A stretch of DNA of 62,754 nucleotides from Deltaproteobacteria bacterium (GTDB taxonomy: Bacteria > Desulfobacterota > Desulfuromonadia > Desulfuromonadales > Geopsychrobacteraceae), in the NCBI GenBank assembly GCA_024280485.1, contig JAJRQB010000022.1:1-62754 (forward strand), read 5' to 3'. The translations under genes were made by a program, and so were the position numbers. Within the stretch, counting starts at the first letter, position 1, and the number at the start of each line of letters is the position of its first letter. This document shows positions 742-27,330 of the stretch, piece by piece. Below the pieces are notes generated by a model that was not told where the DNA came from, ran no database searches, and saw nothing but the letters and a program-made list of their open reading frames with translations.

Positions 742-776
742 TTGACGGCACGTTCCACAGGATGATAGTTTAAACT
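742..776 (+). promoter_or_regulatory. promoter and probable MarR operator of the marR-doxX-pirin-wrbA operon
   Basis: TTGACG (742-747) and GATAGT (764-769) are separated by 16 bases. The perfect palindrome AGTTTAAACT (767-776) overlaps the -10 element and lies just ahead of the MarR gene, as expected for an autorepressed MarR operon. Assignment of the palindrome to this MarR protein is inference. Confidence 0.45.
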
Positions 777-801
777 TAAATCATTTAACCAGGAGCTAAT
801 A

Positions 802-1248: not shown

Positions 1249-1288
1249 GAGTTCAATATTTAACTGTTTGTCAGAAAGGAATAGAACG

Positions 1289-2433: not shown

Positions 2434-2455
2434 ACAAACGTAAGGGAGATGAGCC

Positions 2456-3076: not shown

Positions 3077-3097
3077 TCTGGGTCAGATTGGAAGTGA

Positions 3098-3126
3098 TTG
3101 ACTAAGCGCGCCAATTGCGTTAAATA
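3098..3126 (+). promoter_or_regulatory. original host promoter of tRNA-Thr
   Basis: TTGACT (3098-3103), 17 bases, TAAATA (3121-3126), followed 14 bases later by the tRNA 5' sequence. Prophage insertion leaves this promoter driving only a 28-base tRNA fragment and then a terminator at 3191. Confidence 0.7.
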
Positions 3127-3140
3127 CTGCAGACGCTTTT

Positions 3141-3168
3141 GCCGCTCTAGCTCAGTTGGTAGAGCAAC
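3141..3168 (+). other. attL: truncated 5' copy of tRNA-Thr
   Basis: These 28 bases match the 5' end of the intact tRNA-Thr at 51519, covering acceptor strand and D-arm. Positions 3147-3168 are a 22-base perfect match to 51525-51546; the preceding six bases differ at two positions (GCCGCT here, GCCGTC at the right). After 3168 the sequences diverge completely, placing the left prophage boundary here. Confidence 0.85.
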
Positions 3169-3293: not shown

Positions 3294-4793
3294 TTACAGT
3301 TTGTAGTGATTTCCGTGATATTCGGTAGGCTTTGGGGCTTTTGTCGGGATGGGGACTCGGGCCATCTCGCTGCCTTTGGCCGATCGAGGGAAGCGATAGG
3401 TGATTAGGAGGTAGTTAGCGTACATGCGGATCCCCTCGATGACCAGGGGCAGGAACTCGCGTTTTTCTTCAAAGGTCATCAGCTCGAAATCGTCCCGTGA
3501 CAAATCGATCGCGTCAAAGTCTGGCGGGCTAGTTTTATTTGCAATGACCTTTGATCTCTGGATTTGGATGGTGCTTATGGCTTTATCGATATCGGTACGC
3601 TTGCTCCTGACGCTGGGATCGGTGATATCGAGAACGCCAGAGACTATTGCATCGATCAGGCGTTTTTTCTGATCAATGAGATCGCCCTCCCCTTTTTGTA
3701 ATTTGGCCAGACTGTTATCGTCGCTACTCACCTGCTCTTGCTTTTCAACCCACCATTTTTTTAGATTGTCACTGCCGCATCCCAGGGTGATGAAGCCGCT
3801 GGTCAATATTTTTTCGTCTATGACGACCTGCGGAACCATGCGCGATTTAGGGCATTTGGCTCTTAAACCTTTGGCGTTGCAGCCGTAGTAATCGAGCCGC
3901 GTACCGTCTTTACGGGTGTTGGAGTTCTGCCAGGCGCGGACGGTGCGGCCGCAGTATCCGCAGCGGATTAGTTTGAGGTTGGTGAACAGAGCTGCGGCTG
4001 ATCGCTTTGGCCCGCTAGTTCTGCCGGCGCGGCGGTTGGCACGGATGCGCTGCGCCTGGTCTTCATCCATAACCTTTGGCCATTGTCCCTGGATGGTGTT
4101 GTCGGTTTCGGGATCGATGCGCAGGCCCTGCAGAAATAACAGCCGTTGATCTGAGACATGCCTGCGGGCGCTGATCAGTGAGATCCCTGCGTCCTCGGCA
4201 ATACCTCTGGCGCTGTGGGTTTCGGCGAGTTTCCAGATTCTTTGTGCCTGGGCCAGCAATACCGAATCGACCTTGAGGCCTCCGATGGTCTTATCGTAGG
4301 CATAGGGGATCGGTGGGTTTCCGCTCAGGTATTTGCCAGAGAGGAAGGCTTGTCGGCGGCCGTCTGCCATGCGCTCTTTGAGCCAGAGCATCTCGGTGTT
4401 GGACATGGTCCCGGTGATGCCGAGCAGCAGACGGTGTGAAATTTCGTTGGGATCGAGGATCTGTGTCAGGGTAGCAAGCTTGACGTTGTTGTCAGCACAA
4501 AGGGCGACCCATTGGAGGTAATCGACACCGGTTTCATCGCGGCTGAGGCGAGATAATTCCAGGGTTAGGATAATATCGATCTTGCCAGCGCGGATATCGG
4601 CTTCGAGCCGGGCTCGTTCAGGTAGAGCTTCGGCCTTACCTCTGGCAGCTGAGGCAAAGCCTTCATCATAGATGAGGGGCGTCCAGCCCTGGGACTTTGC
4701 GTGGGCTGGCAGCTGTTGCCGCTGGACGGTGAGCCGGTGGGCGTCTTTACCGGCTTCTTCGCGGCTTTTGCGGATGTAGATGGCGCAGTTCAT
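3294..4793 (-). CDS. int: large serine recombinase (prophage integrase)
   Basis: 499 residues. The N-terminal resolvase domain (1-150) has the catalytic serine S10 in YIRKSREE with R8, and the LSRLSRDETG motif. The recombinase domain (about 165-270) and a zinc ribbon (CGYC near 290 with a later C-N-A-K...KC pair) follow, then a C-terminal coiled coil: the full large-serine-integrase layout. It sits directly inside attL, as expected for the enzyme that integrated the element. No tyrosine recombinase is seen anywhere in the prophage, so this enzyme presumably acts at the tRNA-Thr site. That is unusual, since tRNA targets are mostly used by tyrosine integrases. The ribosome site is weak. Confidence 0.9.
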   Translation of the reverse strand: MNCAIYIRKSREEAGKDAHRLTVQRQQLPAHAKSQGWTPLIYDEGFASAARGKAEALPERARLEADIRAGKIDIILTLELSRLSRDETGVDYLQWVALCADNNVKLATLTQILDPNEISHRLLLGITGTMSNTEMLWLKERMADGRRQAFLSGKYLSGNPPIPYAYDKTIGGLKVDSVLLAQAQRIWKLAETHSARGIAEDAGISLISARRHVSDQRLLFLQGLRIDPETDNTIQGQWPKVMDEDQAQRIRANRRAGRTSGPKRSAAALFTNLKLIRCGYCGRTVRAWQNSNTRKDGTRLDYYGCNAKGLRAKCPKSRMVPQVVIDEKILTSGFITLGCGSDNLKKWWVEKQEQVSSDDNSLAKLQKGEGDLIDQKKRLIDAIVSGVLDITDPSVRSKRTDIDKAISTIQIQRSKVIANKTSPPDFDAIDLSRDDFELMTFEEKREFLPLVIEGIRMYANYLLITYRFPRSAKGSEMARVPIPTKAPKPTEYHGNHYKL

Positions 4794-6346: not shown

Positions 6347-6814
6347 CTATGCGGAGTTCTGAGCCGCCGAGTTTGAGCCCCCATCCCCTTTTTCCCGCGA
6401 CTCCTGGGCCGATTCTTCGAGCATGGCCATTGCGTGTTTTTTGGCAAAGTCGCTGGCCTTCTCCCATATATCTAATAGGTGCTGCTGTTCTTTTGTGACC
6501 GGGTTACGGGCTCTTCCCGGTAGTGCCTTTAGCTCCTTATCAGCTGCGCTTGCTTCCTCTGGAGTTAGAGAAAAGTACTCTAAATACCTTGGCGGCACAG
6601 CAGACCATTGTTTGCCTTCGCCTGTTTTTAGCCACTCAATCTCTACCCCTGCTTTTGTAGCGACCCTAGCAAGACTACCTTCAGGGATATTCTTCCGTCT
6701 TCGCCAGTTGCCTGCTGAACCCGATGAAAAGCCTGCAATAGCAAGCATTTGTGCAGCATTGTCGGCACCCGTTGCGTAAATCATACGGTTAATTATAGAT
6801 TCAATGTCGCACAT
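6347..6814 (-). CDS. CI-like phage repressor lacking the S24 peptidase domain
   Basis: 155 residues. Residues 1-65 match the phage CI repressor helix-turn-helix family (IINRMIYATGADNAAQMLAIAGFSSGS..WRRRKNIPEGSL.RVATKAGVEIEWLKTG). The rest is a polar, partly helical tail instead of the usual LexA-like self-cleaving domain, so RecA-driven autocleavage would not be expected. AAGGA lies 11 bases before the ATG. It is probably the lysogeny repressor acting at the palindromes around 6837 and 7290; induction must use another route such as an antirepressor. Confidence 0.7.
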   Translation of the reverse strand: MCDIESIINRMIYATGADNAAQMLAIAGFSSGSAGNWRRRKNIPEGSLARVATKAGVEIEWLKTGEGKQWSAVPPRYLEYFSLTPEEASAADKELKALPGRARNPVTKEQQHLLDIWEKASDFAKKHAMAMLEESAQESREKGDGGSNSAAQNSA

Positions 6815-7610: not shown

Positions 7611-8075
7611 ATGCCGAAGGTGAAGTCGATGATGATCACTTTTAAAGAGGCGCTGCAGGAGGATTTGCGCGGCTCTAAGGTTCCGGCCAAGGTCGTGGCT
7701 GAGGAGCTGGAAATGTCTTACAGCATGCTGATGAATGCCTGTAATCCAGACTTGCCTGAATTCAACTTTCAGGCGCGTAAGTTAGCGCGTTTTGCCCAGG
7801 TGACGGGTGGTTTTCATGCGATCAATTTCATCGAACAAAGTTTGGGCCGGGTGTCTTTTAGTTTGCCGGAGATTCCCGACGAGCTTGAGGAGATCGACTC
7901 GTTGGTTGCGGCGAATGTGCGTGAGTTCGGGGCTGCTCTAACGGAGATCGGCCAGGCGCTTGCGGATCGGAGAATTACCAAAGTTGAGGCGAAGCGCCTG
8001 GAGAAGACGATTACCGAGCAGGTGCGTAAGGCGATGTCGTTGATTGAGTCGGTTAAGAAGGTTGCGGAGGGTTAG
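7611..8075 (+). CDS. phage regulatory protein CII (CP76 family)
   Basis: 154 residues with the CP76/CII-like layout: FKEALQEDLRGSKVPAKVVAEELEMSYSMLMNACNP (about 10-45), a helical middle, and a long C-terminal alpha-helical region rich in Leu and Arg. Members of this family act early in the lysis-lysogeny decision. GAGGGG lies before the ATG. It is the second gene of the rightward early operon. Confidence 0.75.
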   Translation: MPKVKSMMITFKEALQEDLRGSKVPAKVVAEELEMSYSMLMNACNPDLPEFNFQARKLARFAQVTGGFHAINFIEQSLGRVSFSLPEIPDELEEIDSLVAANVREFGAALTEIGQALADRRITKVEAKRLEKTITEQVRKAMSLIESVKKVAEG

Positions 8076-12143: not shown

Positions 12144-12247
12144 CGGGTACGAAGGGCGCAGGCTTTGTGTCCGGATGAATTTTGGATTGCTCTGTAAAAA
12201 TGTAACTCCGTCTGTAATTTTCGGCGGATATACCATAAGTGGTGGAT

Positions 12248-13819
12248 ATGGATAACGAAACAAAAGTGATCGATATCAAGAAGGCGGTGGCGGATCGCGT
12301 CGCTGAGGAATCTGCCGACCTAGTTGAACCAGGGGTAGCAGATGAGATCGCGGAGAAATTCGTGCTCGATTGCTATCGCGCCAATGAGCGGGGCGACGGG
12401 CTGCTGTTCATCGCAATTCATCGCGGCCGGTTTCTCTACAATAACGCCGCGGCCGAATGGATGCACTGGACCGGTCATCACTGGGAGCGGGATATCATGG
12501 GCCACCACCATCGAGCAGTTGAAGATGTGGCGGTCAAGTATCTCGAGACAGCCTACGGGCTCAAAGAAAAAATTGAGAAAGCAGTCAAGTCCGAAGAAAC
12601 AGATATTGCCCGAAAACTGAAAGACCAGCAGATCGATCTTTTCAAACGTGTCAGCAAGCTCCGCTCAAGTGGCGGTGTTGAGAATTGCATCAAGTTCGCC
12701 AGGATGAACATTGAGCCGCTCGCCATTCACGGCGAAGAGATCGACACCAACCCCTGGCTGCTCGCCACAAAAAACGGCGTCATCGATCTGCGTAACGGGA
12801 TCCACTCACCAGGCAATCCAGATGATCATCTGCTCAAGGCCAGCCCGATCGCCTGGCAAGGGCTCGATGCCAAATGCCCCAATTTTGATAAGTTCCTGCT
12901 CGAGATCTGTGACGGCAACCAGGATCAAGTCGACTACATCGTTCGAGTTATTGGCTACGGCATTACCGGCACAGTCAAAGAGCATATTTTCCCGGTGCTC
13001 CAGGGGCAGGGCCGCAACGGAAAAGGTGTCCTGGTCGATCTGCTCAAACACGTCCTGGGAGATCTCGCCGGTCCCATCGAATCAGAGATGCTACTCGATC
13101 AAGGCCGCTCTAAAAACTCCGGCGGTCCCAGCGCCGACATCATGAGACTCAAAGGACTGCGGATCGCCTTCGCCAGTGAGACCGATGAAGGTCGCAGGTT
13201 CTCCAGCTCCAGAGTCAAGTGGTTCACCGGTGGCGATATGCTCATCGGCCGAAACCCACACGACAAATATCCAACCGAATTCATACCGACGCACCTGCTC
13301 TTTCTGCTCACTAATAGCAAGCCACACGCCCAGGGCGATGACTTCGCCTTTTGGGAGCGGATGCACCTTATTTTCTTCGGGATCAGTTTCGTTAATCGTA
13401 AACCGAAAGCCGCCAACGAACGAGAAGCCAAAAAAGGGTTGATCGATTCCCTCAAAGAAGAAGCGCCCGGCATCCTGGCAAAGCTGGTTAACGGTTGTCT
13501 CGATTGGCAGAAAAACGGCCTGCAGCCGCCAGCGATCGTCACCGAAGCCACCGCCCAGTATCGTCGCGATGAAGACCTGATCGGCGGCTTCATTGAGGAC
13601 TGCTGCGAAGAAAAGCCGGGCGAAAAATGCGGCGCTAGCGATGCTTACAAAGCCTTCGAAAACTGGTACCGCCTCGAGAAGGGTAACAAGGTGCCATCGC
13701 CCAAATTCTTCGGCCAACAAATGGGTAAGAAATTCGAGAAGAAAAAGAGCGGCACCTATTTCTATCACGGCCTTGTCATCATCGAACATGGTCAGGCTGC
13801 CTTTGAAACGGGCTATTAA
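12248..13819 (+). CDS. D5-type phage/plasmid primase-helicase (P4 family)
   Basis: 523 residues from the ATG at 12248; a GTG 9 bases upstream is an alternative. The D5 N-terminal region contains WMHWTGHHWERD and NPWLLATKNGVIDLRNG. An SF3 helicase ATPase follows with Walker A GQGRNGKGV near 253-261, a conserved LRIAFASETDEGRRF, KWFTGGD and HLLFLLTNSKP sensor block. A C-terminal winged helix (DAYKAFENWYRLEKGNKVPSPKFFGQQMGKKF) completes it. It should unwind DNA at the phage origin. The origin-like repeat region lies immediately downstream and the Toprim primase follows. Confidence 0.85.
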   Translation: MDNETKVIDIKKAVADRVAEESADLVEPGVADEIAEKFVLDCYRANERGDGLLFIAIHRGRFLYNNAAAEWMHWTGHHWERDIMGHHHRAVEDVAVKYLETAYGLKEKIEKAVKSEETDIARKLKDQQIDLFKRVSKLRSSGGVENCIKFARMNIEPLAIHGEEIDTNPWLLATKNGVIDLRNGIHSPGNPDDHLLKASPIAWQGLDAKCPNFDKFLLEICDGNQDQVDYIVRVIGYGITGTVKEHIFPVLQGQGRNGKGVLVDLLKHVLGDLAGPIESEMLLDQGRSKNSGGPSADIMRLKGLRIAFASETDEGRRFSSSRVKWFTGGDMLIGRNPHDKYPTEFIPTHLLFLLTNSKPHAQGDDFAFWERMHLIFFGISFVNRKPKAANEREAKKGLIDSLKEEAPGILAKLVNGCLDWQKNGLQPPAIVTEATAQYRRDEDLIGGFIEDCCEEKPGEKCGASDAYKAFENWYRLEKGNKVPSPKFFGQQMGKKFEKKKSGTYFYHGLVIIEHGQAAFETGY

Positions 13820-14110: not shown

Positions 14111-14121
14111 GGATGGAAAAA

Positions 14122-15567
14122 ATGAACATACTCGATCTGCTTAAAAGCCATAACCTGCCCAGCCGTAAAGTCAGCAGTTTAAAGGGCGGCGAATATCACT
14201 CACCATGCCCCACCTGCGGCGGCGGTGATAAGGATGCCAAGGGTCACAGCGATCGCATGCAGCTGTTCCCCGAGCAGGGCACCAACGGTACCTGGTACTG
14301 TCGCGGCTGCGGCAAAGGTGGCGACGCCGTCGAGTGGCTCATCTTTCATGATGGAATGAACTTTCCAGCAGCCTGCGCTGCCCTCGGCCGCGAGCTCCCC
14401 GAGCAGCAAGAGTACGCCACCCCGGTTGTCCGCCGTCAGCAGGCCGCACCGTTTAAGCCCAGAGACATCATTGCGCCGGTTGGTTCCTGGCAAGAAAAAG
14501 CCAGCAAGCTCGTTGGTTACGCCCATGCTCAGCTACGCGCCAACCCTGAGCAGCTCGCCTGGTTGCAAGATCGCGGCATCACCGCCGATACTGCCCACCG
14601 TCACATGCTCGGTTGGCTCCCCGGCGAAAACGGCAAGCCAGCCCACTTCAAAAGTCGTAAAGCCTGGAGCATTCCAGCAAGCACCCAGGGTACAAAGCCA
14701 GATTCTCTGTGGATCCCTCGCGGCATCGTCATTCCACAAATCACCGATGACCAAACACAGCGCATCCGGATCCGTCGCCCCGAAGCCGATCGCGAACTGT
14801 TCCTCCCCGATCGCAGCTATCATGTCCTACCCGGATCCGGACAAGCCCCGCTGCTCATCTATAACAATCAGCGCGTCATCACTGTCACTGAATCCGAGCT
14901 CGACGCCATCCTGGTTGAACAAGAAGCTGGCGAGCTCACCGGCACTGTCTCAATGGGGAACTCGACCGCCAAGCCAGATGCCGCCGCCCATGGCGCCCTC
15001 AGTCAAGCCGATCTCATCCTGGTCGCCCTCGATTTTGACAAAGCAGATTCCCAGGGCCGTCGCGCAGGTGGCCAAGCCTGGATCTGGTGGAGCAACAACT
15101 ATCGCAACGCAATCCGCTGGCCCACCCCGGTCGGCAAGGATCCAGGCGATGCTTTCAAGGCCGGACTCTCGATCCTCCAGTGGATTCAGGCCGCTGTGCC
15201 TGCCATTTGGACTGAAGGGACTATTGACGCCGGTCGCAGCAACGGGGGGGAGGGGGAAGTTCTGGCAGAAGAACCCGCCATCGCCGCTGAGGTTGCAGAG
15301 CGTGTCGAGCAAGAAGAGGTCGGCAATCGCCCTGAAGGCGTCACTGAGCTCGGGCAGCTGCTGCAGGCTCACAAACACGCTCATGTCGATCTGTCCGGTG
15401 GCGGCTGTCGTATTGTCACCCACCCCGAATGGCGCAAGCACTTCGAGGCCGAATTCTCCCGCATCAGTCGCCTGGTCTTTTATGACGCAGAGGTCTTTCA
15501 ATTTCTCATCAACCATCCGGCTGAAATTATCACCGGGCAAAACTACTGGGAAGGATCCAGCCAATGA
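14122..15567 (+). CDS. DNA primase with CHC2 zinc finger and Toprim domain
   Basis: 481 residues from the ATG at 14122; an ATG at 14113 is also possible. The N-terminal CHC2 zinc-binding domain has CPTC near 31-34 and CRGC near 61-64. The Toprim domain has the glutamate in TESELDAI (about 258) and the DxD-like acidic pair in LVALDFDKADS. A C-terminal region of low similarity follows. It should make RNA primers for phage replication, working with the D5 helicase upstream. It overlaps the next gene by 4 bases. Confidence 0.85.
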   Translation: MNILDLLKSHNLPSRKVSSLKGGEYHSPCPTCGGGDKDAKGHSDRMQLFPEQGTNGTWYCRGCGKGGDAVEWLIFHDGMNFPAACAALGRELPEQQEYATPVVRRQQAAPFKPRDIIAPVGSWQEKASKLVGYAHAQLRANPEQLAWLQDRGITADTAHRHMLGWLPGENGKPAHFKSRKAWSIPASTQGTKPDSLWIPRGIVIPQITDDQTQRIRIRRPEADRELFLPDRSYHVLPGSGQAPLLIYNNQRVITVTESELDAILVEQEAGELTGTVSMGNSTAKPDAAAHGALSQADLILVALDFDKADSQGRRAGGQAWIWWSNNYRNAIRWPTPVGKDPGDAFKAGLSILQWIQAAVPAIWTEGTIDAGRSNGGEGEVLAEEPAIAAEVAERVEQEEVGNRPEGVTELGQLLQAHKHAHVDLSGGGCRIVTHPEWRKHFEAEFSRISRLVFYDAEVFQFLINHPAEIITGQNYWEGSSQ

Positions 15568-15806: not shown

Positions 15807-15825
15807 AAACAGTAAGGAGAGAGAA

Positions 15826-16389
15826 ATGAAAAACGAATGTCCGAAGTGGATCAAATTTTTAAAAGAAGTTGTCGGTGATGATGTCGCTATTGAGCAATTG
15901 CGGTTCTGGATGAAGTCGCTCGTAGCCGGAGAGAGGATGCACCAGGCTTTATTGTTGGTCGGTCCTGGCCTCGGCAAAAGCACACTTGCTCAGGTTGTTG
16001 CGCAGATGGTCGGTAGTGATTCAGTTAGTCGGGTCGATAGTTTTTTGAAAACAACCTGTCTCGCCCCGCTGAAAAATTCGCGACTTAATATCTGCGAAGA
16101 AGATTTCAACTTCTCTCGCTGTTCGGCTCGGTTGAAGTCGATCATGGGTGGAGATACTCAATTGTCCCGCTATCCGTACCAGCGGGTTGCTGAAGAGTTT
16201 GTTTTTGAGGGTGCTTTGCTGTTTACGCACAATGGTCAGATAAAAGAACAGAGCCTTAGTCTCGAGGGGCGTCTGCTGCGGATCCCGTTTGAAGGTCCCG
16301 CCCCTGCCCAGTTGAATTTTGAATTACGGGATGAGCTGCTGGCAGAGCTCGAGCAGATCAAGTCTTGGGCTCTCGAGGGGGGTAAATAA
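15826..16389 (+). CDS. stand-alone SF3/D5-like helicase ATPase domain
   Basis: 187 residues from the ATG at 15826, with AAGGAGAGAG upstream. Walker A is GPGLGKST near residue 46, with LNICEEDFNFS as the probable Walker B/C region, an LKSIMGGDTQLSRYPY segment equivalent to the ITGGD block of D5 helicases, and LLFTHNGQIK as sensor. It lacks both the D5 N-terminal domain and the C-terminal winged helix, so it is ATPase core only. It lies immediately before the PRTRC ParB gene; a matching winged-helix piece lies after the PRTRC block at 21408. Confidence 0.65.
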   Translation: MKNECPKWIKFLKEVVGDDVAIEQLRFWMKSLVAGERMHQALLLVGPGLGKSTLAQVVAQMVGSDSVSRVDSFLKTTCLAPLKNSRLNICEEDFNFSRCSARLKSIMGGDTQLSRYPYQRVAEEFVFEGALLFTHNGQIKEQSLSLEGRLLRIPFEGPAPAQLNFELRDELLAELEQIKSWALEGGK

Positions 16390-16390: not shown

Positions 16391-18166
16391 ATGACACATC
16401 ACACAAACGCAACCTTCGAGAACATCGCCCTGGCCAGCCTGCAGGTTAACGAGCAGAACGCGCGGAAATTTCAAGAGGCTACCAGCGGCCATCGCCGTAC
16501 CAAGTTTGATGAACTGGTCGCTTCAGTGCGCGAAAAGGGAATCATCGAACCCTTGGTGGTTCGGCCGATCGATGATGATAACTATCAGATCATAGCTGGT
16601 GAGCGTCGGTACCGTGCGGCAGAGCTTGTGGCTGCAGACGCTGGCGCTGCCGCCGATTATTATAAGGTTCCATGCATGATCTGGCAGGTTGACGATGCTG
16701 AAGCCTTCGACCTGGCTATTATTGAAAACCTTCAGCGTGAAGATCTGACACCTTTCGAGGCAGCGACTGCGTTCAAAACTTACCTCGATCAATTCGGCAA
16801 TACGCCAGAAGCGGTGTCAGAGCTCGCAGCGCGTACCGGTCTGCCAGCTCATGCCATCCGGCGCCAGGTGCGGCTGCTCAATCTGCCGACCGAAATCCTC
16901 AATATCTGGGGTGATGGCACTATCACCGCCGGTCATGTCGAAGCTTTCACCCGCATCGATGATCGCGAAAAGTGTCTGCAGGTGATGGGCGAATGCCTGC
17001 GTCGCAAGTTCTCGGTGCGTGAGCTGCGGGAACATATCAACGGAATTTCTCCCGATCTCGAGCAGGGCTTTTTCTATAAGGATGATTGCCTGGCTTGCGC
17101 ATCCAATACCAGCCTGCAGTCCGGTCTATTCTCTGAAGTTGAAACCGATGGCAAGTGTGCCAGTCCTGCCTGTTTTGAAGATAAACAGGCCGCTTTTCTT
17201 CTTAGTAACTGGGATAAGAGCAAGGCCGCAGAACAGTTCCGCACCCGAGGTTTCCGCTTCAGTCATCGCCTTGGCCAGGAATCCCGCGAAATGATTACCG
17301 CTGAGGTGACCGCCGCTCGTTGTTTCGGCTGTGATCAATTTGTCAGTGTCTTGCGTCTGACCGGTTTGATTATGGGCGGCTACGCTCGCACCTGTGTCGG
17401 ATCGCGTGAATGCTTCGAAGAGCTCTACTGTCAGACTGCCTCAAATCAGGTTGAAATATCGGAAGTCGAAGAGACCAAACAGCCGGTTGAGAATCAGGTC
17501 GAATCAACCGAGCAGCCTCCGGCAGAAACTCCGTCGACCAGCAAGAAAAAAGTCGCTGCGGCTAAAGAAACAACTGGGCCAGTCTTCTCCGCTCAACGTG
17601 GCACAAGATTCCGTGACACCTTTTTCGGCAACCGGCTTCCTGCCCTTATCGCCCTCACTCCACCCGATCAAGCGCAGAGTCTCCGTCTGGTGGTGTTGGC
17701 TTTGGCGCTTTCTTCTGCGGCCGCAAAGACCGAACTGGTCGCAGGGCTCGGCAGCAACGATACGCCCGAGGACCTCACCCGCAAGATATTCGAGATCCCG
17801 ATGCCCGAGTTGCTCCCCTTGTTGCAGCAACTGGCCAGCGCCCAGGTCATGAGTAGCGGTTACAACTCCACCACCCCAACTGTGCGCCAGGTGGTAGCAG
17901 AGCGATTCGGTATCGAGCTGCACAAAGAATGGTGCTTTACCGAGGACTATCTGAAGGATCTGAAAAAAAGCGAAATCGTTAAGATCGGCGAAGAGGATCA
18001 GGTCAATATTTGGAAGGATGAAAAGGTCAAAGCCTATCACCGTGAACATTTTTCCGGCAAAGGGCTCATGTCTCTCAAGCGAGAAGATCTGATCGATCTG
18101 GTGTTCAAGAGCGGAGCCGATCTCACTGGCCGGGTGCCTGCTGAAATTCTTGGCAAGAAGAAATAG
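16391..18166 (+). CDS. PRTRC-system ParB-family protein
   Basis: 591 residues. The ParB/Srx nuclease-like N-domain has GERRYRA (70-76) and ENLQREDLTPFEAA (112-125), followed by a KorB-like HTH (SELAARTGLPAHAIRRQVRLLNLP). The middle has cysteine pairs (CLAC; C-x4-C; CFGCDQF), and a charged Pro/Glu-rich linker precedes a C-terminal domain seen in PRTRC ParB proteins. These proteins are named for their co-occurrence with a ThiF-like protein; whether this one segregates DNA or binds a partner site is unknown. No ParA is present. Confidence 0.8.
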   Translation: MTHHTNATFENIALASLQVNEQNARKFQEATSGHRRTKFDELVASVREKGIIEPLVVRPIDDDNYQIIAGERRYRAAELVAADAGAAADYYKVPCMIWQVDDAEAFDLAIIENLQREDLTPFEAATAFKTYLDQFGNTPEAVSELAARTGLPAHAIRRQVRLLNLPTEILNIWGDGTITAGHVEAFTRIDDREKCLQVMGECLRRKFSVRELREHINGISPDLEQGFFYKDDCLACASNTSLQSGLFSEVETDGKCASPACFEDKQAAFLLSNWDKSKAAEQFRTRGFRFSHRLGQESREMITAEVTAARCFGCDQFVSVLRLTGLIMGGYARTCVGSRECFEELYCQTASNQVEISEVEETKQPVENQVESTEQPPAETPSTSKKKVAAAKETTGPVFSAQRGTRFRDTFFGNRLPALIALTPPDQAQSLRLVVLALALSSAAAKTELVAGLGSNDTPEDLTRKIFEIPMPELLPLLQQLASAQVMSSGYNSTTPTVRQVVAERFGIELHKEWCFTEDYLKDLKKSEIVKIGEEDQVNIWKDEKVKAYHREHFSGKGLMSLKREDLIDLVFKSGADLTGRVPAEILGKKK

Positions 18167-18175
18167 GAATTCACT

Positions 18176-19258
18176 GTGTCTGTCAACGTCATCATCGAAC
18201 GGATCAGCGCCAGCCTTAACGCTGGAGCGCTGCCAATAAGGCAAGCCGACGTTCAAGTTGGTCCGCTTGATATGGCAGATATGGTTCGGCCGTATGCTGA
18301 AATTTTCCCAGGAGTACCGACCAGTATCGAATCGCCAGAGATCTTCGGCTGGGGTTCGGGCTCACTCAAGAAGCCACACCACCTGGTTCCCTCTCCGCGC
18401 CGTAGTTGCCTCCCCTTGGCAGCACCGCGCTATAGCTCCGCGCCGATCTGCGTACCCGGCGCTGGCATCTTCCATTCGATGCTTGGTGTTTGGGAGTGGT
18501 ATCAGGCAAAAGGCCTTGCCAAGCCAGAGTTGCTGGATGGACCGTTCGCAGCAGAAGAGCTGGAAGCTTTCCTCGAGCCGCTCGTTGACGGGCTCTCGGA
18601 TTACTGGCCCTTGGCTGTGCATCTTGAGCAGGCCGGGTGCGACAGTGTCGAGGATCTGATCGGGCTCCCGCTGCTATTGCCGCACACCTCTTATGATGAG
18701 GAGCATGTCGGTGTGGTCGAGGCTTTGCTGAGCGGTGTTGATTCTATCGCCTCAATGCTGACTGAGTTTCTGAGTTATGACAGTTTTTTCGATCTTCCGG
18801 AAGAAGACCTCGCCATTATCAAATCGGCCGGTTTTGTGAAGCTTGTTCAGTGCTATGCCGACTTTAAAGGTGAGAAGACTTGCGACATTCTCAAATTGGA
18901 AAATTTCGGTACAACCTTTTTCGGTCAACTCTGGCAGCAGTTTCCCGAATGGGAAATAGAGCGCTTGCCGATCATCAGCGGTGATGGTGGGCGTGATGCC
19001 GAGATCATCATCAAGGGCCCAGACACCATAGAATTCTGCCTCGCCTACGCCGAAGCCTACGAACAGATGATGGGTGCCATGCCTTATCCGTTTGACTTCG
19101 AGGCCAATGAGGATCGGGCTGTTGACCATTTCGTGCATGAGCTCTGCGAGGTTTGGCGCAAGGGCCGCCGCATGTCATCGGTGCCCCTGGGTGCCGGTAT
19201 GAAAAACGTCTTTAAGGATTATTTTGCCAAGGAGGGAAACCGTGTCCAAACAGCCTAA
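18176..19258 (+). CDS. PRTRC system protein F-like
   Basis: 360 residues from a GTG at 18176 with AGGA upstream. It is acidic, with a SIASMLTEFLSYDSFFDLPEEDLA helical segment and a C-terminal FVHELCEVWRKGRRMS. I assign it to protein F from its size and its fixed position between ParB and protein B; sequence recognition alone is weak. Function unknown. It overlaps protein B by 17 bases. Confidence 0.55.
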   Translation: MSVNVIIERISASLNAGALPIRQADVQVGPLDMADMVRPYAEIFPGVPTSIESPEIFGWGSGSLKKPHHLVPSPRRSCLPLAAPRYSSAPICVPGAGIFHSMLGVWEWYQAKGLAKPELLDGPFAAEELEAFLEPLVDGLSDYWPLAVHLEQAGCDSVEDLIGLPLLLPHTSYDEEHVGVVEALLSGVDSIASMLTEFLSYDSFFDLPEEDLAIIKSAGFVKLVQCYADFKGEKTCDILKLENFGTTFFGQLWQQFPEWEIERLPIISGDGGRDAEIIIKGPDTIEFCLAYAEAYEQMMGAMPYPFDFEANEDRAVDHFVHELCEVWRKGRRMSSVPLGAGMKNVFKDYFAKEGNRVQTA

Positions 19259-19898
19259 CTCTACCGTCCAGATGCAGAAGCAACTCTACGGCATTGGCAT
19301 ATTCGAGGCAGAGATTGTGCTCTCTGATTTCACCAATGGTTCGGAGCGCAGGTTTGTCGTAACTCCAGATCAACTTATGGGTTTCATCCACTCAGACATA
19401 ACCCTGCAGTCATTCCCGGGTTTGATCTGGATGAAAGCCGGTGCTGGCTCAGAAAAATATCTACTGACCTTGCCCGCTGGGCAGCGCACCATCCTTTATC
19501 GAAGAAAAAAGAACGTCATCACCAAGCGCCTGCAGCTTCCTGCCATTGCCATCGAAGCCGGTATCGAACCTGTTGAAAAGCAGGTTCGTACTATCCGCAT
19601 GTGGGGCTTTGCCGGTCGCCAGCTTAAGCCAGACAGCATCCTTTATGAGCTGCCATTGCCGAATTTGGGCGGCAGCCATCTTTGCCTCGGTAGCACCGAA
19701 CGGGCCGTTGATAGAGATATTCTCGGGGCCGTCGAACGGACAATCTTCGATACTCCGTTCAACCATCACAACCATCTTGTCGGGCGTGAAAAGCTACCGT
19801 TTCACGACTACGTCAAGAAATACGCCGGTCGCTGCCCCTTTCATACCCTCACCAAAATCGGCCACGGCCGCGACATTCTCGGAGGGCACCTTCGATGA
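19242..19898 (+). CDS. PRTRC system protein B (E2-like, Prok-E2_D family)
   Basis: 218 residues from the GTG at 19242, with AAGGAGGG 5 bases upstream. The C-terminal region has LPLPNLGGSHLCLGS with Cys148 followed by TPFNHHNHL. The P-x-N ... G-x-x-C arrangement parallels the HPN...G-x-C-L active site of ubiquitin-conjugating enzymes. PRTRC B proteins have been placed in a prokaryotic E2-like family. It overlaps the E1-like gene by 4 bases. Conjugation activity is inferred from family and neighbours. Confidence 0.7.
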   Translation: MSKQPNSTVQMQKQLYGIGIFEAEIVLSDFTNGSERRFVVTPDQLMGFIHSDITLQSFPGLIWMKAGAGSEKYLLTLPAGQRTILYRRKKNVITKRLQLPAIAIEAGIEPVEKQVRTIRMWGFAGRQLKPDSILYELPLPNLGGSHLCLGSTERAVDRDILGAVERTIFDTPFNHHNHLVGREKLPFHDYVKKYAGRCPFHTLTKIGHGRDILGGHLR

Positions 19899-20632
19899 AT
19901 CGTAAAACGTACCTGGCACCGCAGTTCAGAAAATTATTGCTCATCGGCACCGGTGGCACTGGCAGTTACCTGGCTCCAGGCCTGGCCAAGCTTGTCGCTG
20001 GTTATCGGCTCAAGCTCGAAGTACTTCTGGTCGATCCCGACGTAGTCGAAGAAAAGAACTGCGCTCGGCAAAACTTCCACTCCTGGGAGATCGGGCAAGC
20101 CAAGGCCGAGGCCATCGCCTTCCGGCTCAATCAGCAATACGGCGTCGATTTCGGTTTCGTCCAGGGCAAAGGAGAGGATCACTTCGGCCACTACCTTGAC
20201 AGATCCCGCCTGATCGTCAGTTGCGTCGACACCATCGCCGCTCGCAAACCATGCAAAGAGCAAGGCCCCTGGCTCGATCTCGGCAATGGTCAGGAGACTG
20301 GTCAGGCAATTTACGGCACGACCGTCGACAAGAAGCTGCTTGCAGGCGAGCTGGAACGCTGGGACACCTCCCCGCACGTCGGTCATCTACCCAGTCCCTA
20401 CAAAGTTGCCGGCATGGGTCGGCTGCGCTCCAGTAAGCGTCAGACGTCTTGTGCTGATACCCCTTTTGCCGAGCAGGGAATCTTCGCCAACGAGTGGGCC
20501 GCCAATGCCGGTCTGGCAATTATTCACCAGCTGCTGATCAAGGGGGAGCTGACCACCCCGGCCATCTACTTCGACACCGGCAAGGGCCGGATGGTTTCGG
20601 GATTTATAACCAAAGATCTGTTGAGCCACTAA
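19895..20632 (+). CDS. PRTRC system ThiF-family protein (E1-like adenylyltransferase)
   Basis: 245 residues. The Rossmann-type nucleotide site is GTGGTG (18-23), followed by D47PD, the E1 signature NCARQNF (55-61), and VDT (111-113). A conserved-type cysteine, C186 in TSCAD, matches the candidate catalytic position of PRTRC ThiF proteins. No zinc-binding CxxC pairs are present. It should adenylate the C-terminus of the ubiquitin-like partner at 21220. It overlaps protein B by 4 bases, and AAGGAG of the next gene follows. Confidence 0.8.
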   Translation: MNRKTYLAPQFRKLLLIGTGGTGSYLAPGLAKLVAGYRLKLEVLLVDPDVVEEKNCARQNFHSWEIGQAKAEAIAFRLNQQYGVDFGFVQGKGEDHFGHYLDRSRLIVSCVDTIAARKPCKEQGPWLDLGNGQETGQAIYGTTVDKKLLAGELERWDTSPHVGHLPSPYKVAGMGRLRSSKRQTSCADTPFAEQGIFANEWAANAGLAIIHQLLIKGELTTPAIYFDTGKGRMVSGFITKDLLSH

Positions 20633-20642
20633 GGAGCGCACT

Positions 20643-20924
20643 ATGGATAGGGCAGAAAAAGCCAAGGAAGTGAAGCGAGTTGTGAAGGTGGGGGATGTTC
20701 TAACTCACACACGCTGTATGGGGTGCCTGGAAGAACACATTTTTACCGGCTGGGATGGGGAATGGATGTGTGGTGATCCGGCCCCTGCGCCTGCTTTTTT
20801 CGCGGATTTATCTGCTGAGCCGGTAAACGATATAGCGCCAGGCAATGTAACGCATATCAACAGCGTTCCTGTGGAAAATGTTGAATTTCTACTAAATGTG
20901 AAAAAAGAAAGGGAGAGAAGCTAA
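20643..20924 (+). CDS. hypothetical protein inside the PRTRC block
   Basis: 93 residues with AAGGAG before the ATG. A short cysteine-containing segment (HTRCMGCLEEHIFTGWDGEWMC) may bind a metal. No recognised family. It overlaps the next gene by 1 base (TAATG), so it is probably co-translated with the PRTRC genes. Confidence 0.55.
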   Translation: MDRAEKAKEVKRVVKVGDVLTHTRCMGCLEEHIFTGWDGEWMCGDPAPAPAFFADLSAEPVNDIAPGNVTHINSVPVENVEFLLNVKKERERS

Positions 20925-21205
20925 TGGCAGAAACCAGAGTACAGATCGCCTACCACTTCAAGTTCGATCCGGCCCAGCAGATCGTGGGCCCGGTGCAGAT
21001 CCCCGAGATGATCACCCGCACCATTGCTGTCGGTAGTGAGATCATCCCGCAGAAAGTGACATCCAGTTCGATCCCTGAAGCCGATCGCGCCGCTTTGTTG
21101 GTCGAGATGGAAAAGCAGGTCCGTGAAGCCACTCGCACCGCCAAACCTGCCGGTGCAGCTGGGGCCAATGTTGGCCAGAACAATGAAGAAATCAGCGTTT
21201 TTTGA
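20924..21205 (+). CDS. hypothetical protein inside the PRTRC block
   Basis: 93 residues. The N-terminal two-thirds look like beta strands (VQIAYHFKFDPAQQIVGPVQIPEM), followed by a helix and an Ala/Gly-rich tail. It occupies the slot where PRTRC protein E sometimes lies but shows no convincing similarity to it. It ends just before the ribosome site of the ubiquitin-like gene. Confidence 0.5.
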   Translation: MAETRVQIAYHFKFDPAQQIVGPVQIPEMITRTIAVGSEIIPQKVTSSSIPEADRAALLVEMEKQVREATRTAKPAGAAGANVGQNNEEISVF

Positions 21206-21219
21206 GGGGAGAGAAACCG

Positions 21220-21408
21220 ATGGCAACTGAAACAACAGACATGATCGTTAAGTTCGAAGGGCGTGAGTACAACGTCCCGGCCGGATTCACCGTCGAAGAG
21301 TTCGTCGACAGCCTGGCCACCACCAACCCCAAAGCAGCCACCGCCAAGCTGATCAAGGATAGCGAAGGGGTTTATACGCTGAAGCCGCAGTTTAAGGATA
21401 AGGGGTGA
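21220..21408 (+). CDS. PRTRC system protein C (ubiquitin-like, Prok_Ub family)
   Basis: 62 residues from the ATG at 21220, with GGGGAGAG upstream; a TTG start 18 bases earlier is less likely. The layout fits a short beta-grasp protein: strand pair MIVKFEGREYNVP, helix TVEEFVDSLATTNPKAATA, strand KDSEGVYTLKP and a free C-terminus FKDKG. Family members commonly end in KG rather than GG. It is the presumed modifier activated by the E1-like protein at 19895. It overlaps the next gene by 1 base. Confidence 0.7.
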   Translation: MATETTDMIVKFEGREYNVPAGFTVEEFVDSLATTNPKAATAKLIKDSEGVYTLKPQFKDKG

Positions 21409-22172
21409 TGACGATGAAAGTATGGGAGCCAATCGACGAACTTGTGTCCTTCGCATTCGATAAAAGCAACAACATCATGATCGAGGGCAGCGAGAACCAG
21501 GACGACTACCGAGGTGTGCTGATCGGTCACTCTCTCGATGATCCTTATGGTCATTCACTGGCCGAGGTAATTACTGGTGAAGGCCGTGAGGCAGACGAAG
21601 AGTTTGCCAAGCTGATAATCGCTGCAATGAAATATCAGGTGTCGGAGCCAACAATTGAGGAGGTTGTGCAGCATTCCGATCTGCTGCCTGGTGAGCTCGA
21701 TGATCTCTCCGTCCCTATGAGCAATGCTGATTGTGTCAAGGTCTGGTCGCAGCTCCATGAGGCCAGAACTAAGCCACCGCTTTTGAGCATGGCTTGTTCG
21801 TCAAAAGACCCTGGCGCCGAGATTGAAGATTCCCTTTACCGGGTGCTCAGCAAACGACTGGCGATAGAGGCTCAGATGGTCGTTTTTGTGACCGCCGAAG
21901 AGCCACCTTATGTGGACGGGGCTTTGGAATTTGTTCGACGCTATTTCAGCGGTCGAGTCGTTGAGGTTGGTGCTGAAGGGGAAGTCGACCGGATGAAACT
22001 CTACGAAGACTTTAGAGGGTATTGCGACCTCGAAGATTATCCGCTGCTCGGACGTAAAAAATTCTTTAGCTGCATTAAGCAGATAGTTCCTGGTTTGGAG
22101 ATAAGGAATTGCATGGGACGTCGCTATTTTAAAGGCTTGAAAATAGCGGTTAAAGAGGTTGCCAGCGGATGA
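21408..22172 (+). CDS. protein with C-terminal D5-type winged helix
   Basis: 254 residues from the ATG at 21408; the ATG at 21414 is an alternative. The N-terminal part is acidic and unrecognised. The C-terminal 75 residues (LEFVRRYFSG...MKLYEDFRGYC..EDYPLLGRKKFFSCIKQIVPGLEIRN...RRYFKGLKI) resemble the winged-helix domain at the end of D5/P4-type helicases. No ATPase is present here; the ATPase-only counterpart lies before the PRTRC block. Confidence 0.5.
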   Translation: MTMKVWEPIDELVSFAFDKSNNIMIEGSENQDDYRGVLIGHSLDDPYGHSLAEVITGEGREADEEFAKLIIAAMKYQVSEPTIEEVVQHSDLLPGELDDLSVPMSNADCVKVWSQLHEARTKPPLLSMACSSKDPGAEIEDSLYRVLSKRLAIEAQMVVFVTAEEPPYVDGALEFVRRYFSGRVVEVGAEGEVDRMKLYEDFRGYCDLEDYPLLGRKKFFSCIKQIVPGLEIRNCMGRRYFKGLKIAVKEVASG

Positions 22173-24616: not shown

Positions 24617-25396
24617 ATGACCGACACCGAAAAACTACAGAAACTCCTCGAGGTCGCAGACGAGTCAGATCGTATGGAACTGCAGATCATGCAGAAAGCC
24701 ATCGAAACCACGCGCAGCGCTTATCAGTCTGCAGCAACAGCCAGCAATAAAAAGGACTGGGATGTTGCGCGTGAAGGTCTGCAAGACGCGAGTGACCGGC
24801 TCTGGTCTCGGTACATGGTGCAAGAAGAACGGCTCGACAACCGCAAGGCGGTGCTTGAATACCTCAACGAAAACGGCTACAGCATCTCCCAGGGTAAACT
24901 CTATGGTCATGCGAAAAAGGGTCTGCTGCGGTTGCAGCCTGATAAGTCGGTGTTGATGTCCTCGGTCGAGGCCTATATCAACAACCCTGATTCCGGCCTG
25001 ATCAAACATGCCGAAACCGGGCAAACCGAAGAGGATCAGGCCAAGGTGAGCCGCAAGCTCGATCTTGAACTCTCGCTCCTTAAAACCAAGGCCGAACGGC
25101 AGCGCTTCGATTTTGATAAAGAAAAAGGCCGCTATCTGCCGCGTGAAGAGTTCGAGCTCGAACTGGCCAGCCGCGCCGCCGTACTCGAAACCGGGTTCAA
25201 GCATCGGTTCAAGACCAGAGTCGGCGAGTGGATCCAGTTGTGCGGTGGCGATCAAGGCAAACGCACCCTGCTGCTTGATGCCATGCTCAAAGAATTGGAT
25301 GTGCAGCTTAATGACTTCGCGACCAGTGAGCGCTACCAGGTGATGTTTATCGCCGATGAATCGGCCGATGAGACGACCGAAGAGGAGGCAGAATGA
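24617..25396 (+). CDS. terminase small subunit-like DNA-packaging protein
   Basis: 259 residues with AGAGG before the ATG. A helix-turn-helix-like region (VLEYLNENGYSISQGKLYGHAKKGLL, about 80-105), then long charged helices (LDLELSLLKTKAERQRFDFDKEKGRYLPREEFELELASRAAVLETGFKH), as in Nu1-like small terminases, which recognise cos DNA. It overlaps the large-subunit gene by 4 bases. Identification relies on this pattern and on position. Confidence 0.7.
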   Translation: MTDTEKLQKLLEVADESDRMELQIMQKAIETTRSAYQSAATASNKKDWDVAREGLQDASDRLWSRYMVQEERLDNRKAVLEYLNENGYSISQGKLYGHAKKGLLRLQPDKSVLMSSVEAYINNPDSGLIKHAETGQTEEDQAKVSRKLDLELSLLKTKAERQRFDFDKEKGRYLPREEFELELASRAAVLETGFKHRFKTRVGEWIQLCGGDQGKRTLLLDAMLKELDVQLNDFATSERYQVMFIADESADETTEEEAE

Positions 25397-27330
25397 GTGA
25401 CGCGGCCAAACAACTTTTTGATACCGAAACCATTAAGGTCTCGGCCGCGGCCAGCTGGTTGCCGCGCTCGCTCAGGCGGCGTCTAGAACGGCAGCAATGT
25501 ATCGCCTACAAGGTCAAATTCAGCCGCGCCGAGCGCAAGATCTACCGCAAGCGCACCCCGTTACCGGTTTCCCAGTGGGCTGAAAAGAACCGGGTAGTGA
25601 CTCTCAGTTCGCTGCCTGGTCCCTGGAAAAACGAATCCACGCCATACCTGACCGGCATCATGGATGCCTCCAATTACCCTGGGGTACAGACCATCATCCT
25701 GTGCAAGGCTCCCCAGGTCGGTGGCTCCGAGATCGCGCACAACTTTGTCGGAGCAGCCATCGATCAGCAGCCGGGCCCGGTGCTCTACGTCTACCCTGAT
25801 GAGCAGACCGCCAAAGAGAACAGCAAAGACCGTATTCAGCCGATGATCAACAGTTCGCCCCGGCTGCGCAGCTATCTGACCGGAGTGCAGGATGATTCAG
25901 CGGTGATGAGAATCAGCCTGAAGCACATGCCTATTTACATGGCCTGGGCTACTTCGCCCAACCGCTTGGCCAACAAGCCGATCAAGATCCTCATTCTGGA
26001 TGAGATCGACAAATATCCAGCGAGCAGCGGCAAGCGAGAAGCCGATGCCATCGCCCTGGCTGAAATGCGCACCAATACTTTCAGCGACAGCCGTACCATT
26101 TGGAAGATCTCCACCCCGACGATTGAGTCTGGCAATATCTGGGTCGCGCTCAATAACGAGGCCCAGGTGATCTTTGATTATTGGGTCACCTGTCCGCACT
26201 GCGGCGAGCTGCAGCTGATGGAGTTTGATCGCATCAAGTGGCCCAAAGATGAGCGCGATCCGGAGAAGCTCGAAGCATCGCGCCTGGCCGAATATGACTG
26301 CAGCGGCTGTGATCATAGCTGGGACGATGAGACCCGCGATCGGGCGGTGCGCAATGGCCACTGGCGGTCACGCGGAAGTCTGCTCGAGCTGTTTGTTTAC
26401 TTGAACGCCAACCGTCCGAAAAAGGTCGGCTTTCATATTCCCGCCTGGCTCAGCCGATTAGTTTCGCTCTCCGAGATCGCCGGAGATTTCCTGCGTGGTC
26501 AAAAGGATAAAACCAAGCTTAAAAAGTTCATGAACCAACGTAAAGCCGAGCCCTGGATCGACTACGGACAAGACCGTGAAACGGCCGCAATCCTTGCCCT
26601 GCGGGATTCGCACCGCCCTCGCGGCATTTATCCCTCTGGTGATATCGCAGGTTTGACCATCGGCATAGATACTCAGGACGTCGGTTTTTACTATCGGATA
26701 ACTGCCTGGGGCTTTGGCATGGAGATGCCTGCTGGGTTAGTCGCTGAAGGGAAAATAGAAACATTGGATGCCCTCGAAGAGGTCATTTATCGCGAGTATG
26801 AAAATCCTGATGGCTATCGGCTGATGATCATGGGCGGCATGATCGATACCGGCGGTCACAGGACGGCTGAGATTTACGACTGGTGTCGCCTGCATCAACA
26901 CATTCTGCCGATCAAGGGCAAATCAACCCGTGGTGGAGCGCCGGTCGATTGGTCACAGATCGACTACTACCCGGGCACTAAAACCAAGATTCCAGGTGGC
27001 CTCATTCTCTATAAAATCGATACAATTTTTTATAAGGACATGCTCGCCAGCAAGTTGGAGATAAAGCGCGATGATCCTGGAGCCTACCTTTTCCACAATG
27101 AGATTGATGAGGATTATGCCGCACAGATGTGCGTCGAGTACCGGGATGCAGAGTCAGGAAAGTGGGAATGTCCCAAAGGCAAGGCCAACCACTACTGGGA
27201 CTGCAGCGTCTATGACCTGGCTTATGCCCACTATCGGAACATTCGTAGCTGGGTCAGGCCAGATCCAGCTCAGCAGCAAGCCGCTGCCAGTGGTGGGCGT
27301 CGGGTGCGTAGTCAGGGTGTGACGGTTTAA
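25393..27330 (+). CDS. terminase large subunit, lambda GpA family
   Basis: 645 residues. N-terminal ATPase with the Walker A variant APQVGGSE (about 105-112) and Walker B LILDEIDKYP (about 200-209); a CPHCGE zinc-knuckle pair with CSGCDHSW in the middle; a C-terminal nuclease region with IGIDTQDVGFYYR (about 422-434) and a late D-x-x-VYDLAYAHYR segment. It powers DNA packaging and cuts at cos. GpA membership predicts cohesive-end packaging. The stop is followed at once by two orphan genes rather than the usual head-tail joining gene. Confidence 0.9.
   Translation: MSDAAKQLFDTETIKVSAAASWLPRSLRRRLERQQCIAYKVKFSRAERKIYRKRTPLPVSQWAEKNRVVTLSSLPGPWKNESTPYLTGIMDASNYPGVQTIILCKAPQVGGSEIAHNFVGAAIDQQPGPVLYVYPDEQTAKENSKDRIQPMINSSPRLRSYLTGVQDDSAVMRISLKHMPIYMAWATSPNRLANKPIKILILDEIDKYPASSGKREADAIALAEMRTNTFSDSRTIWKISTPTIESGNIWVALNNEAQVIFDYWVTCPHCGELQLMEFDRIKWPKDERDPEKLEASRLAEYDCSGCDHSWDDETRDRAVRNGHWRSRGSLLELFVYLNANRPKKVGFHIPAWLSRLVSLSEIAGDFLRGQKDKTKLKKFMNQRKAEPWIDYGQDRETAAILALRDSHRPRGIYPSGDIAGLTIGIDTQDVGFYYRITAWGFGMEMPAGLVAEGKIETLDALEEVIYREYENPDGYRLMIMGGMIDTGGHRTAEIYDWCRLHQHILPIKGKSTRGGAPVDWSQIDYYPGTKTKIPGGLILYKIDTIFYKDMLASKLEIKRDDPGAYLFHNEIDEDYAAQMCVEYRDAESGKWECPKGKANHYWDCSVYDLAYAHYRNIRSWVRPDPAQQQAAASGGRRVRSQGVTV

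Follow-up and report, generated by a model that had tools for sequence, protein, structure and literature searches.

A phage-borne, PRTRC-like cassette of predicted ubiquitin-like conjugation genes without a JAB peptidase

The window analysed in this work is a stretch of 62,754 nucleotides from a draft genome of a Deltaproteobacteria bacterium of the Geopsychrobacteraceae (assembly GCA_024280485.1, contig JAJRQB010000022.1, positions 1 to 62,754), and it contains a prophage of about 48 kb with tRNA-Thr at its borders. Between the primase and terminase genes of this prophage, seven genes at 16391-21408 encode, in this order, a ParB family protein, an F-like protein, an E2-like protein, an E1-like protein, two small proteins called here 20643 and 20924 after their first positions, and a predicted ubiquitin-like protein C (Table 1). 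Their set resembles PRTRC, the ParB-Related, ThiF-Related Cassette, whose proteins are designated A to F, protein D being ParM-like. The species and genes given for operon type 6d by Iyer et al. 2006 (PMC1779556) lead us to equate that type with PRTRC (NCBIfam TIGR03734-03742). A preliminary description of the sequence had named the seven open reading frames and called them tightly packed; all are present at or near the positions it gave, and they overlap or lie no more than 14 bases apart throughout.

Table 1. Genes and sites of the cassette (upper rows) and of the surrounding prophage (lower rows), in window positions
Feature	Position	Strand	Basis or remark
PRTRC-type ParB family protein	16391-18166	+	TIGR03734 2.1e-52 over 34-584
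F-like protein, position of PRTRC F	18176-19258	+	no family above cut-off; mostly helical model
E2-like protein (PRTRC B), presumed catalytic Cys148	19242-19898	+	Prok-E2_D above cut-off
E1-like adenylating enzyme (PRTRC ThiF), presumed catalytic Cys186	19895-20632	+	TIGR03736 3.9e-30
Small protein, three Cys, two of them in CxxC; not conserved	20643-20924	+	no family
Core protein of 93 amino acids beside C	20924-21205	+	present in 9/9 clade loci
Predicted ubiquitin-like modifier (PRTRC C), FKDKG at stop codon	21220-21408	+	hhalign to canonical C
Gene after C, overlapping its stop codon, outside the core	21405-22172	+	no family above curated cut-off
attL, left prophage end	3138-3168		partial copy, 5' part of tRNA-Thr
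Large serine integrase	3294-4793	-	Pfam Resolvase 1.1e-18, Zn_ribbon_recom 5e-7; phrog_95 integrase 4e-49
CI-type repressor	6347-6814	-	PF07022 30.4 bits, cut-off 22
CII-type regulator (CP76), opens rightward gene block	7611-8075	+	PF06892 6e-17
Replication protein (primase/helicase)	12239-13819	+	phrog_1156 DNA primase 8.6e-91
DnaG-like primase	14119-15567	+	phrog_849 3.4e-27; TIGR01391 2.7e-8, below cut-off
P4-type primase C-terminal/helicase-like ATPase	15817-16389	+	TIGR01613 1.3e-19, below cut-off; phrog_1829 DNA primase 3.9e-17
Terminase small and large subunits	24617-27330	+	phrog_57 6e-6; phrog_15 1.2e-148
attR, right prophage end, with restored tRNA-Thr(CGT) at 51519-51594	51516-51546	+

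The best NCBIfam match of the E1-like protein is PRTRC_ThiF (TIGR03736), with 105 bits against a curated cut-off of 144.75, and the Pfam ThiF family is matched above cut-off; the GxGGTG motif and other ThiF residues are kept, and the cysteine that the preliminary description had numbered Cys186 is correctly numbered and present in all 55 sequences compared. The E2-like protein matched Pfam Prok-E2_D with 27.3 bits (cut-off 25) and TIGR03737 with an E-value of only 0.0072, while profile-profile alignment (hhalign) to canonical PRTRC B reached 98.2%; no solved E2 relative was found by sequence at an E-value of 1. Its best start is the GTG at 19242, preceded by the Shine-Dalgarno sequence AGGAGG, and this start places the presumed catalytic cysteine at residue 148, where the preliminary description had put it. 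The cysteine is kept in 50 of 50 sequences, an upstream asparagine in 49 and a downstream histidine in 42. Such a histidine is described for the type 6d E2s (PMC1779556, available part), so that the Cys/Asn/His pattern fits an E2 of this type.

Protein C was recognised by comparing profiles. Translation starts at ATG 21220, behind a G-rich run. Family searches with the single sequence gave nothing better than an E-value of 0.04, and that to an unrelated family, with no match to an NCBIfam PRTRC C model; hhalign against canonical PRTRC C gave 92.9% and a P-value of 3.6e-7, and the alignment pairs the terminal KG of both. The AlphaFold2 (AF2) model (pLDDT 81) comprises two strands, a helix and two further strands, and has a low-confidence, probably flexible C-terminus. 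C is thus predicted to be a beta-grasp-like, ubiquitin-like relative of PRTRC C, in agreement with the preliminary description, whose expectation that family profiles would recover proteins B and C held for B through Prok-E2_D, and for C failed with the single sequence and held between profiles. That description had also proposed a KDKG remnant as the mass-spectrometric signature of adducts, which needs correction: C ends K-D-K-G, and trypsin, by cutting after the last lysine, would leave a single glycine (+57.02 Da) on the target lysine. This remnant is isobaric with carbamidomethyl and has the same composition, so routine tryptic proteomics with iodoacetamide could miss the adducts. Since the residue before the glycine at the presumed mature end is lysine in 41 of 43 C proteins and arginine in one, the lone-glycine remnant should hold for most of the PRTRC systems surveyed.

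The first gene of the set was rightly called ParB-related: its product matched TIGR03734 over nearly its full length (178.4 bits, below the curated cut-off of 278.6) and contains ParB_N and HTH_ParB above their Pfam cut-offs. The motifs GERRYRA and ENLQRE, which we take to be the CTP-binding motifs of ParB clamps, are kept, and a role of this protein as a DNA-bound platform is therefore possible. A parS-like cluster was considered and rejected, as the prophage has 19 near-palindromic 16-base sites of which no two are alike; against the Spo0J parS and Noc consensus sequences, it gave no match except one Noc-like site with three mismatches. The protein previously called F has the position and size of PRTRC F and a mostly helical AF2 model (pLDDT 78), and its gene is common to all nine loci of the clade described below; no fold match better than an E-value of 0.2 was found in the PDB or among viral models, and only the positional likeness to F can be kept. 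The two unfamiliar small proteins noted earlier both exist and differ in standing: 20924, which has a low-complexity tail and a final phenylalanine, is a conserved core member, whereas 20643 had no tblastn match in any of eight relatives. Three relatives (L005:8480-8869, L011:9729-9944, L002:9421-9600) encode small CxxC proteins, not necessarily kin of 20643, in this position or close to it. The gene that follows C has a similar frame in only one of the eight relatives (L049, 30%).

The six core genes (ParB, F-like, E2, E1, 20924-type and C) were found in the same order in seven distinct IMG/VR contigs, or eight if the near-copy L004 is counted, which were retrieved by E1 search, and in the Geoalkalibacter plasmid pGSUB1 (L011), the nearest non-phage relative found (E1 50%, no JAB). 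Together with the prophage cassette these make nine loci, whose E1s form one clade with 100/100 support and a long stem, in a tree where long branches may be joined falsely. A large terminase lies on the examined stretch of six of the seven contigs, the exception being L054, and in most relatives the cassette is preceded by replication genes, followed by a terminase, or both; in L050 the terminase is upstream, and the L054 stretch has neither replication genes nor terminase. When the genes were compared in pairs with those of up to four relatives (L001, L002, L003 and L005; ParB and F with L001 and L002 only), 18 comparisons gave ratios of nonsynonymous to synonymous substitution rates (dN/dS) of 0.08-0.37, and two more were saturated, the E2 dS being saturated for L003 and L005. 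For E1, E2, C and 20924 the ratios are well below 1, and the cassette genes appear to be under purifying selection. The shared gene order and these ratios suggest that the arrangement is more than chance. The cassette is rare in the host group: an E1 search of 98 of its genomes gave two matches at 1e-20 (the genome studied here and G080, from the same order, whose match has the same coordinates as in pGSUB1), and one of 395 genomes of the phylum gave seven at 1e-12, with 1e-141 for the genome itself and 1e-28 for the next.

None of the nine clade loci has a PRTRC A (JAB) gene, and a profile built from canonical PRTRC E found no match in the cassette, so that the preliminary description was correct in reporting both as missing. 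The host genome assembly, a draft that is 96% complete, has no Prok-JAB match above cut-off and one RadC. When the whole records of the eight relatives were searched with Prok-JAB at an E-value of 0.1, two matches were obtained and rejected as PRTRC A: the one on G490, the contig of L054, is a JAB+NlpC_P60 protein encoded next to Phage_tail_L, an arrangement like that of tail clusters of the lambda type, and the weak one on G485 is RadC. According to the available part of PMC5512222, the JAB domains of RadC proteins are unlikely to have the groove for a ubiquitin tail. In L002, a RadC-family JAMM protein (3753-4196) is encoded upstream of ParB. In the accessible text of PMC1779556, the JAB is always fused or adjacent in such operons, and the clade thus departs from the original description. 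The preliminary description held that a phage tagging system lacking a deconjugase would be new, but neither trait is unique to the clade: Pseudomonas nitroreducens, P. rhodesiae and Marinobacter, and likewise Deinococcus, Bacteroidota and Acidobacteriota, have loci in which no JAB was found, and other phages carry PRTRC-like sets with JAB. The JAB label changes eight times on the E1 tree, compared with 18.3 times in shuffles, and at least three changes are forced by well-supported branches, which indicates that JAB was gained or lost repeatedly.

A relation between JAB and the C-terminus of C emerged among 43 loci with a recognisable C: tail and JAB occur together in 20, JAB without tail in four, neither in 19 and a tail without JAB in none. 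C extends past ...KG by 3 to 260 residues in 20 of the 24 JAB-positive loci, the longest tail (L041) being probably an over-long frame, and stops at the glycine in all 19 JAB-negative loci, where absence was judged with two hidden Markov models from five seeds within 8 kb of C, so that a very divergent or distant JAB would escape. Fisher's test gave p = 4.7e-8 on 41 loci, without L087 and L088, whose C proteins end in DRG and ANG rather than KG and which entered the clustered tests with tail 0; p was 4.7e-5 for 27 E1 clusters at 70% identity and 0.004 for 17 clusters at 50%, where one cluster with two states was entered under both. PRTRC cassettes are carried by many plasmids, the C searches having met 114 plasmid records (60 of them among the matches listed) and two phage records, from which 14 diverse records were taken (13 plasmids and one phage); the second phage record, L012, was already in the set. 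Outside the count stand the duplicates or near-copies L004, L049, L050, L053 and L055, the 19 loci with no C on the stretch (L013, L014, L019-L021, L032, L036, L037, L042, L048, L058-L066) and seven short, remote E1-like loci of the phylum (L069-L075); L089 is a fragment of 6.6 kb. The co-occurrence of tail and JAB suggests that in canonical PRTRC protein A would at least cut the tail off C after ...GTKG, and that systems whose C ends at the glycine can dispense with protein A. We did not find this reading stated for PRTRC in the accessible part of the open-licence literature covered. JAB cleavage after the terminal glycine was proposed for the phage tail protein TAPI (PMC1779556, available part); the maturation of such proteins by JABs is therefore not a new idea.

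Taken together, the sequence evidence identifies the cassette as a real, conserved, phage-borne PRTRC-like variant, of a JAB-less phage type distinct from the standard cassette: of the PRTRC members, ParB, ThiF, B and C are present, and A and E were not found. We consider it probable that this variant is a branch of the ubiquitin-like conjugation cascade of PRTRC (Iyer type 6d) that is carried by phages, lacks JAB and has a ready-made modifier; it would probably work as a conjugation system. After induction, the rightward replication block would be expressed, judging by the gene order behind the CI/CII switch. The sequence shows that C is made with its C-terminal glycine already exposed, so that no processing peptidase is needed. 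The conserved residues suggest that E1 adenylates this glycine and takes C onto Cys186, and that C would then move to Cys148 of E2 and be joined by isopeptide bonds to lysines of its targets. Since searches of the sensitivity applied here detected no PRTRC A/JAB isopeptidase in the element, none of its own enzymes would be able to take the mark off again, and conjugation is possibly irreversible. The identity of the targets is the weakest part of this mechanism; proteins on the replicating phage DNA might be the likeliest ones. ParB could be a substrate or a platform bound to the DNA, and the F-like protein and 20924 could act as adaptors. A more far-reaching version, in which the tagging is one-way, phage-specific and at work during viral DNA replication, with a pre-matured modifier, no deconjugase and adducts overlooked through their single-glycine remnant, and in which protein A is across PRTRC primarily the maturase of tailed C, a C ending at glycine being an escape from this need, is possible, if doubtful.

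Several observations weigh against the conjugation reading. E1 and ParB score below their curated NCBIfam cut-offs, and C and the F-like protein have no library model above cut-off. In hhalign comparisons the F-like protein showed no homology to PRTRC F, nor did 20924 to PRTRC E, so that the former naming of protein F holds by position and mostly helical predicted fold and not by detectable homology, and the likeness of 20924 to E is positional only. The fold evidence for C would be insufficient by itself: ubiquitin and ubiquitin-like domains top the Foldseek list with a weak best E-value of 0.058, and the best rows of VIA-align, with Z about 5, are mostly protein G or L domains. The link between tail and JAB has four JAB-positive loci without a tail (L015, L017, L076 and L084) and loses significance with E1 clusters at 40% identity (p = 0.4, n = 4); moreover, the loci were collected through similarity of E1 or C and not at random. 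Removal of the tag by a peptidase of the host also remains conceivable, as the genome is a draft and has a RadC. Finally, the accessible part of the open-licence literature covered holds no demonstrated activity of any PRTRC cascade.

Other explanations of the same genes have to be considered. It is rather unlikely, in our judgement, that the cassette is an ordinary PRTRC backbone, that is, a cascade within a plasmid-type maintenance or replication block shared by phages and a pGSUB1-like plasmid, in which the loss of JAB is incidental decay. The kinship with pGSUB1, which has the same core order and likewise no JAB, and the repeated gain or loss of JAB on the E1 tree speak for such a history, whereas decay should have left a tailed C somewhere, and none of the 19 JAB-less loci has one; the low dN/dS of E1, E2, C and 20924 speaks against decay as well. 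The E1 also matches ThiF and MoeB models and the structures of MoeB, ThiF and MccB, besides those of ubiquitin-type E1s, as would suit a sulfur carrier or small-molecule system of the ThiS/MoaD or MccB type in which C is adenylated for thiocarboxylation. We regard this as very unlikely in view of the PRTRC-B type E2 with its invariant cysteine in the same cassette, the equally invariant Cys186 of E1, the PRTRC_ThiF model as best NCBIfam match of E1, the ending of C in KG and not GG, and the scans of the neighbouring genes with family libraries, in which no sulfur-metabolism gene was recognised.

The set could also be cargo, not replication machinery: a counter-defence or superinfection-exclusion device that tags a protein of the host or of a rival phage. 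The similarity of E1 to PADLOC models of E1-E2 proteins, in their E1 domains (best 7e-11), points in this direction, as do conjugation and its reversal by Cap3 in the cyclic oligonucleotide-based antiphage signalling system (CBASS; PMC11153139, available part). The PADLOC match, however, is largely limited to the adenylation core, the best one spanning residues 12-81, no defence model matched the other cassette genes better than an E-value of 0.001, and on the stretches examined most relatives keep the cassette after recognisable replication genes and/or before a terminase, unlike variable cargo, so that we hold this explanation to be unlikely.

The prophage has all the parts of a temperate phage: attachment (att) sites, integrase, repressor, and replication, packaging, head and tail genes. 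Between its ends lie also genes for a DNA ligase, portal, protease, major capsid protein, tail sheath, tape measure and fibre. Gene content and att sites are consistent with the prophage being intact, as had been supposed, and the profile matches of the neighbouring genes confirm the location of the cassette between primase and terminase. The two att copies share 28 of 31 bases, 22 of them consecutive, and in the sibling genome G007 the counterpart of window positions 1-3168 (94% identical) continues straight into an intact tRNA-Thr. An att repeat within a tRNA gene is the usual layout for tyrosine integrases, yet the integrase next to attL is a large serine recombinase. The GC content of the cassette is 0.543 and that of the prophage 0.538, and the numbers of promoters and terminators found by a scan differed from those in shuffled sequences by no more than about one standard deviation. 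A tail type shared by all phages with the set was considered and rejected, the tail-sheath family being found in none of 13 other records, some of them short fragments, and G490 having Phage_tail_L. The right host flank (51603-62754) has a GC content of 0.465, compared with 0.507 on the left, is not collinear with the sibling stretch L028 beyond the tRNA and encodes a PAS histidine kinase, a SpoIIE phosphatase and a class I aldolase. It also contains four copies of a hairpin-like repeat of about 75-90 bases (52579-52656, 54834-54908, 58749-58831 and 61016-61106), 82-87% alike where aligned and lacking an Rfam match, and a c-di-GMP-I-GGC riboswitch (61288-61367) upstream of a frame of 371 amino acids (61549-62664) that has no Pfam match.

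Compared with PRTRC, the prophage set shares ParB, the E2 of Prok-E2_D type, the PRTRC ThiF-type E1, a small C ending in glycine and a helical protein before E2. It differs in lacking JAB/protein A and PRTRC E, in an F that is not recognisably homologous, in the additional conserved 93-amino-acid protein, in its place within a phage replication module and in gene order, which is ParB-F-E2-E1-x-20924-C in the prophage and ParB-E-C-F-B-A-E1 in PRTRC. ParB is not mentioned for type 6d in the available part of PMC1779556. The plasmid loci pGSUB1, pPniHBP1_2 (Pseudomonas nitroreducens, L081) and pDEIPR02 (Deinococcus, L016) have, like the prophage, no protein A and a C ending in KG; pGSUB1 belongs to the same E1 clade, whereas pPniHBP1_2 and pDEIPR02 are remote from it in the E1 tree, and their C, unlike that of the prophage, carries the annotation PRTRC C. 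Among phages, Burkholderia phage BgVeeders33 (OK665841, L012) likewise has a set of its own, in which E, C, F, E2 and E1 were recognised by profiles, but it differs in having protein A/JAB and a C with a tail of 62 amino acids after GTKG; the accessible text of a paper on its relatives mentions neither ThiF nor ubiquitin (PMC9658991). JAB-containing PRTRC-like sets of phages comprise BgVeeders33 (in the order E, C, F, E2, A, E1) and the IMG/VR loci L056-L059, C not being found in L058 and L059. In Vibrio phage D69 (L013) a JAB-like protein precedes an E1-like one and no C or E2 was recognised; Vibrio phages D181 and D148 match in the same way.

In CBASS type II, Cap2 is a fusion of E1 and E2. 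With Cap2/Cap3 the prophage set has in common a related adenylation domain and the E1-E2 chemistry that joins a protein C-terminus to targets, and it differs by its separate E1 and E2, a dedicated modifier and no isopeptidase found. The substrate conjugated in CBASS is the cyclase, and Cap3 reverses the reaction (PMC11153139, available part). The lambda proteins TAPI and TAPK (ubiquitin-like and JAB-NlpC tail proteins; PMC1779556, available part) likewise represent a ubiquitin-like protein of a phage, but they belong to tail assembly and have no E1 or E2. Word matching in open-licence PMC gave, among the matches listed, no paper on a JAB-less or phage-borne PRTRC system, and no tested function of PRTRC was met in the literature so covered; many of the papers matched for PRTRC do not concern the cassette (in the available part of PMC4838322, 'PRTRC' is the name of a plasmid), and the single paper found to contain both 'PRTRC' and 'ubiquitin' has, by its title, another subject.

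For the PRTRC family, the prophage provides a compact natural set, with E1, E2, a ready-made modifier, the 93-amino-acid companion, the F-like protein and ParB, that is convenient to reconstitute, and under the rule linking tail and JAB the role of protein A becomes a yes-or-no question. The lone-glycine remnant is a possible reason why tryptic proteomics with iodoacetamide could have missed adducts. Because related phage sequences carry the same gene set, some bacterial viruses may tag proteins, and, if active, the cassette described here would be a case of a bacterial virus with a ubiquitin-like pathway of its own and no enzyme for removing the tag.

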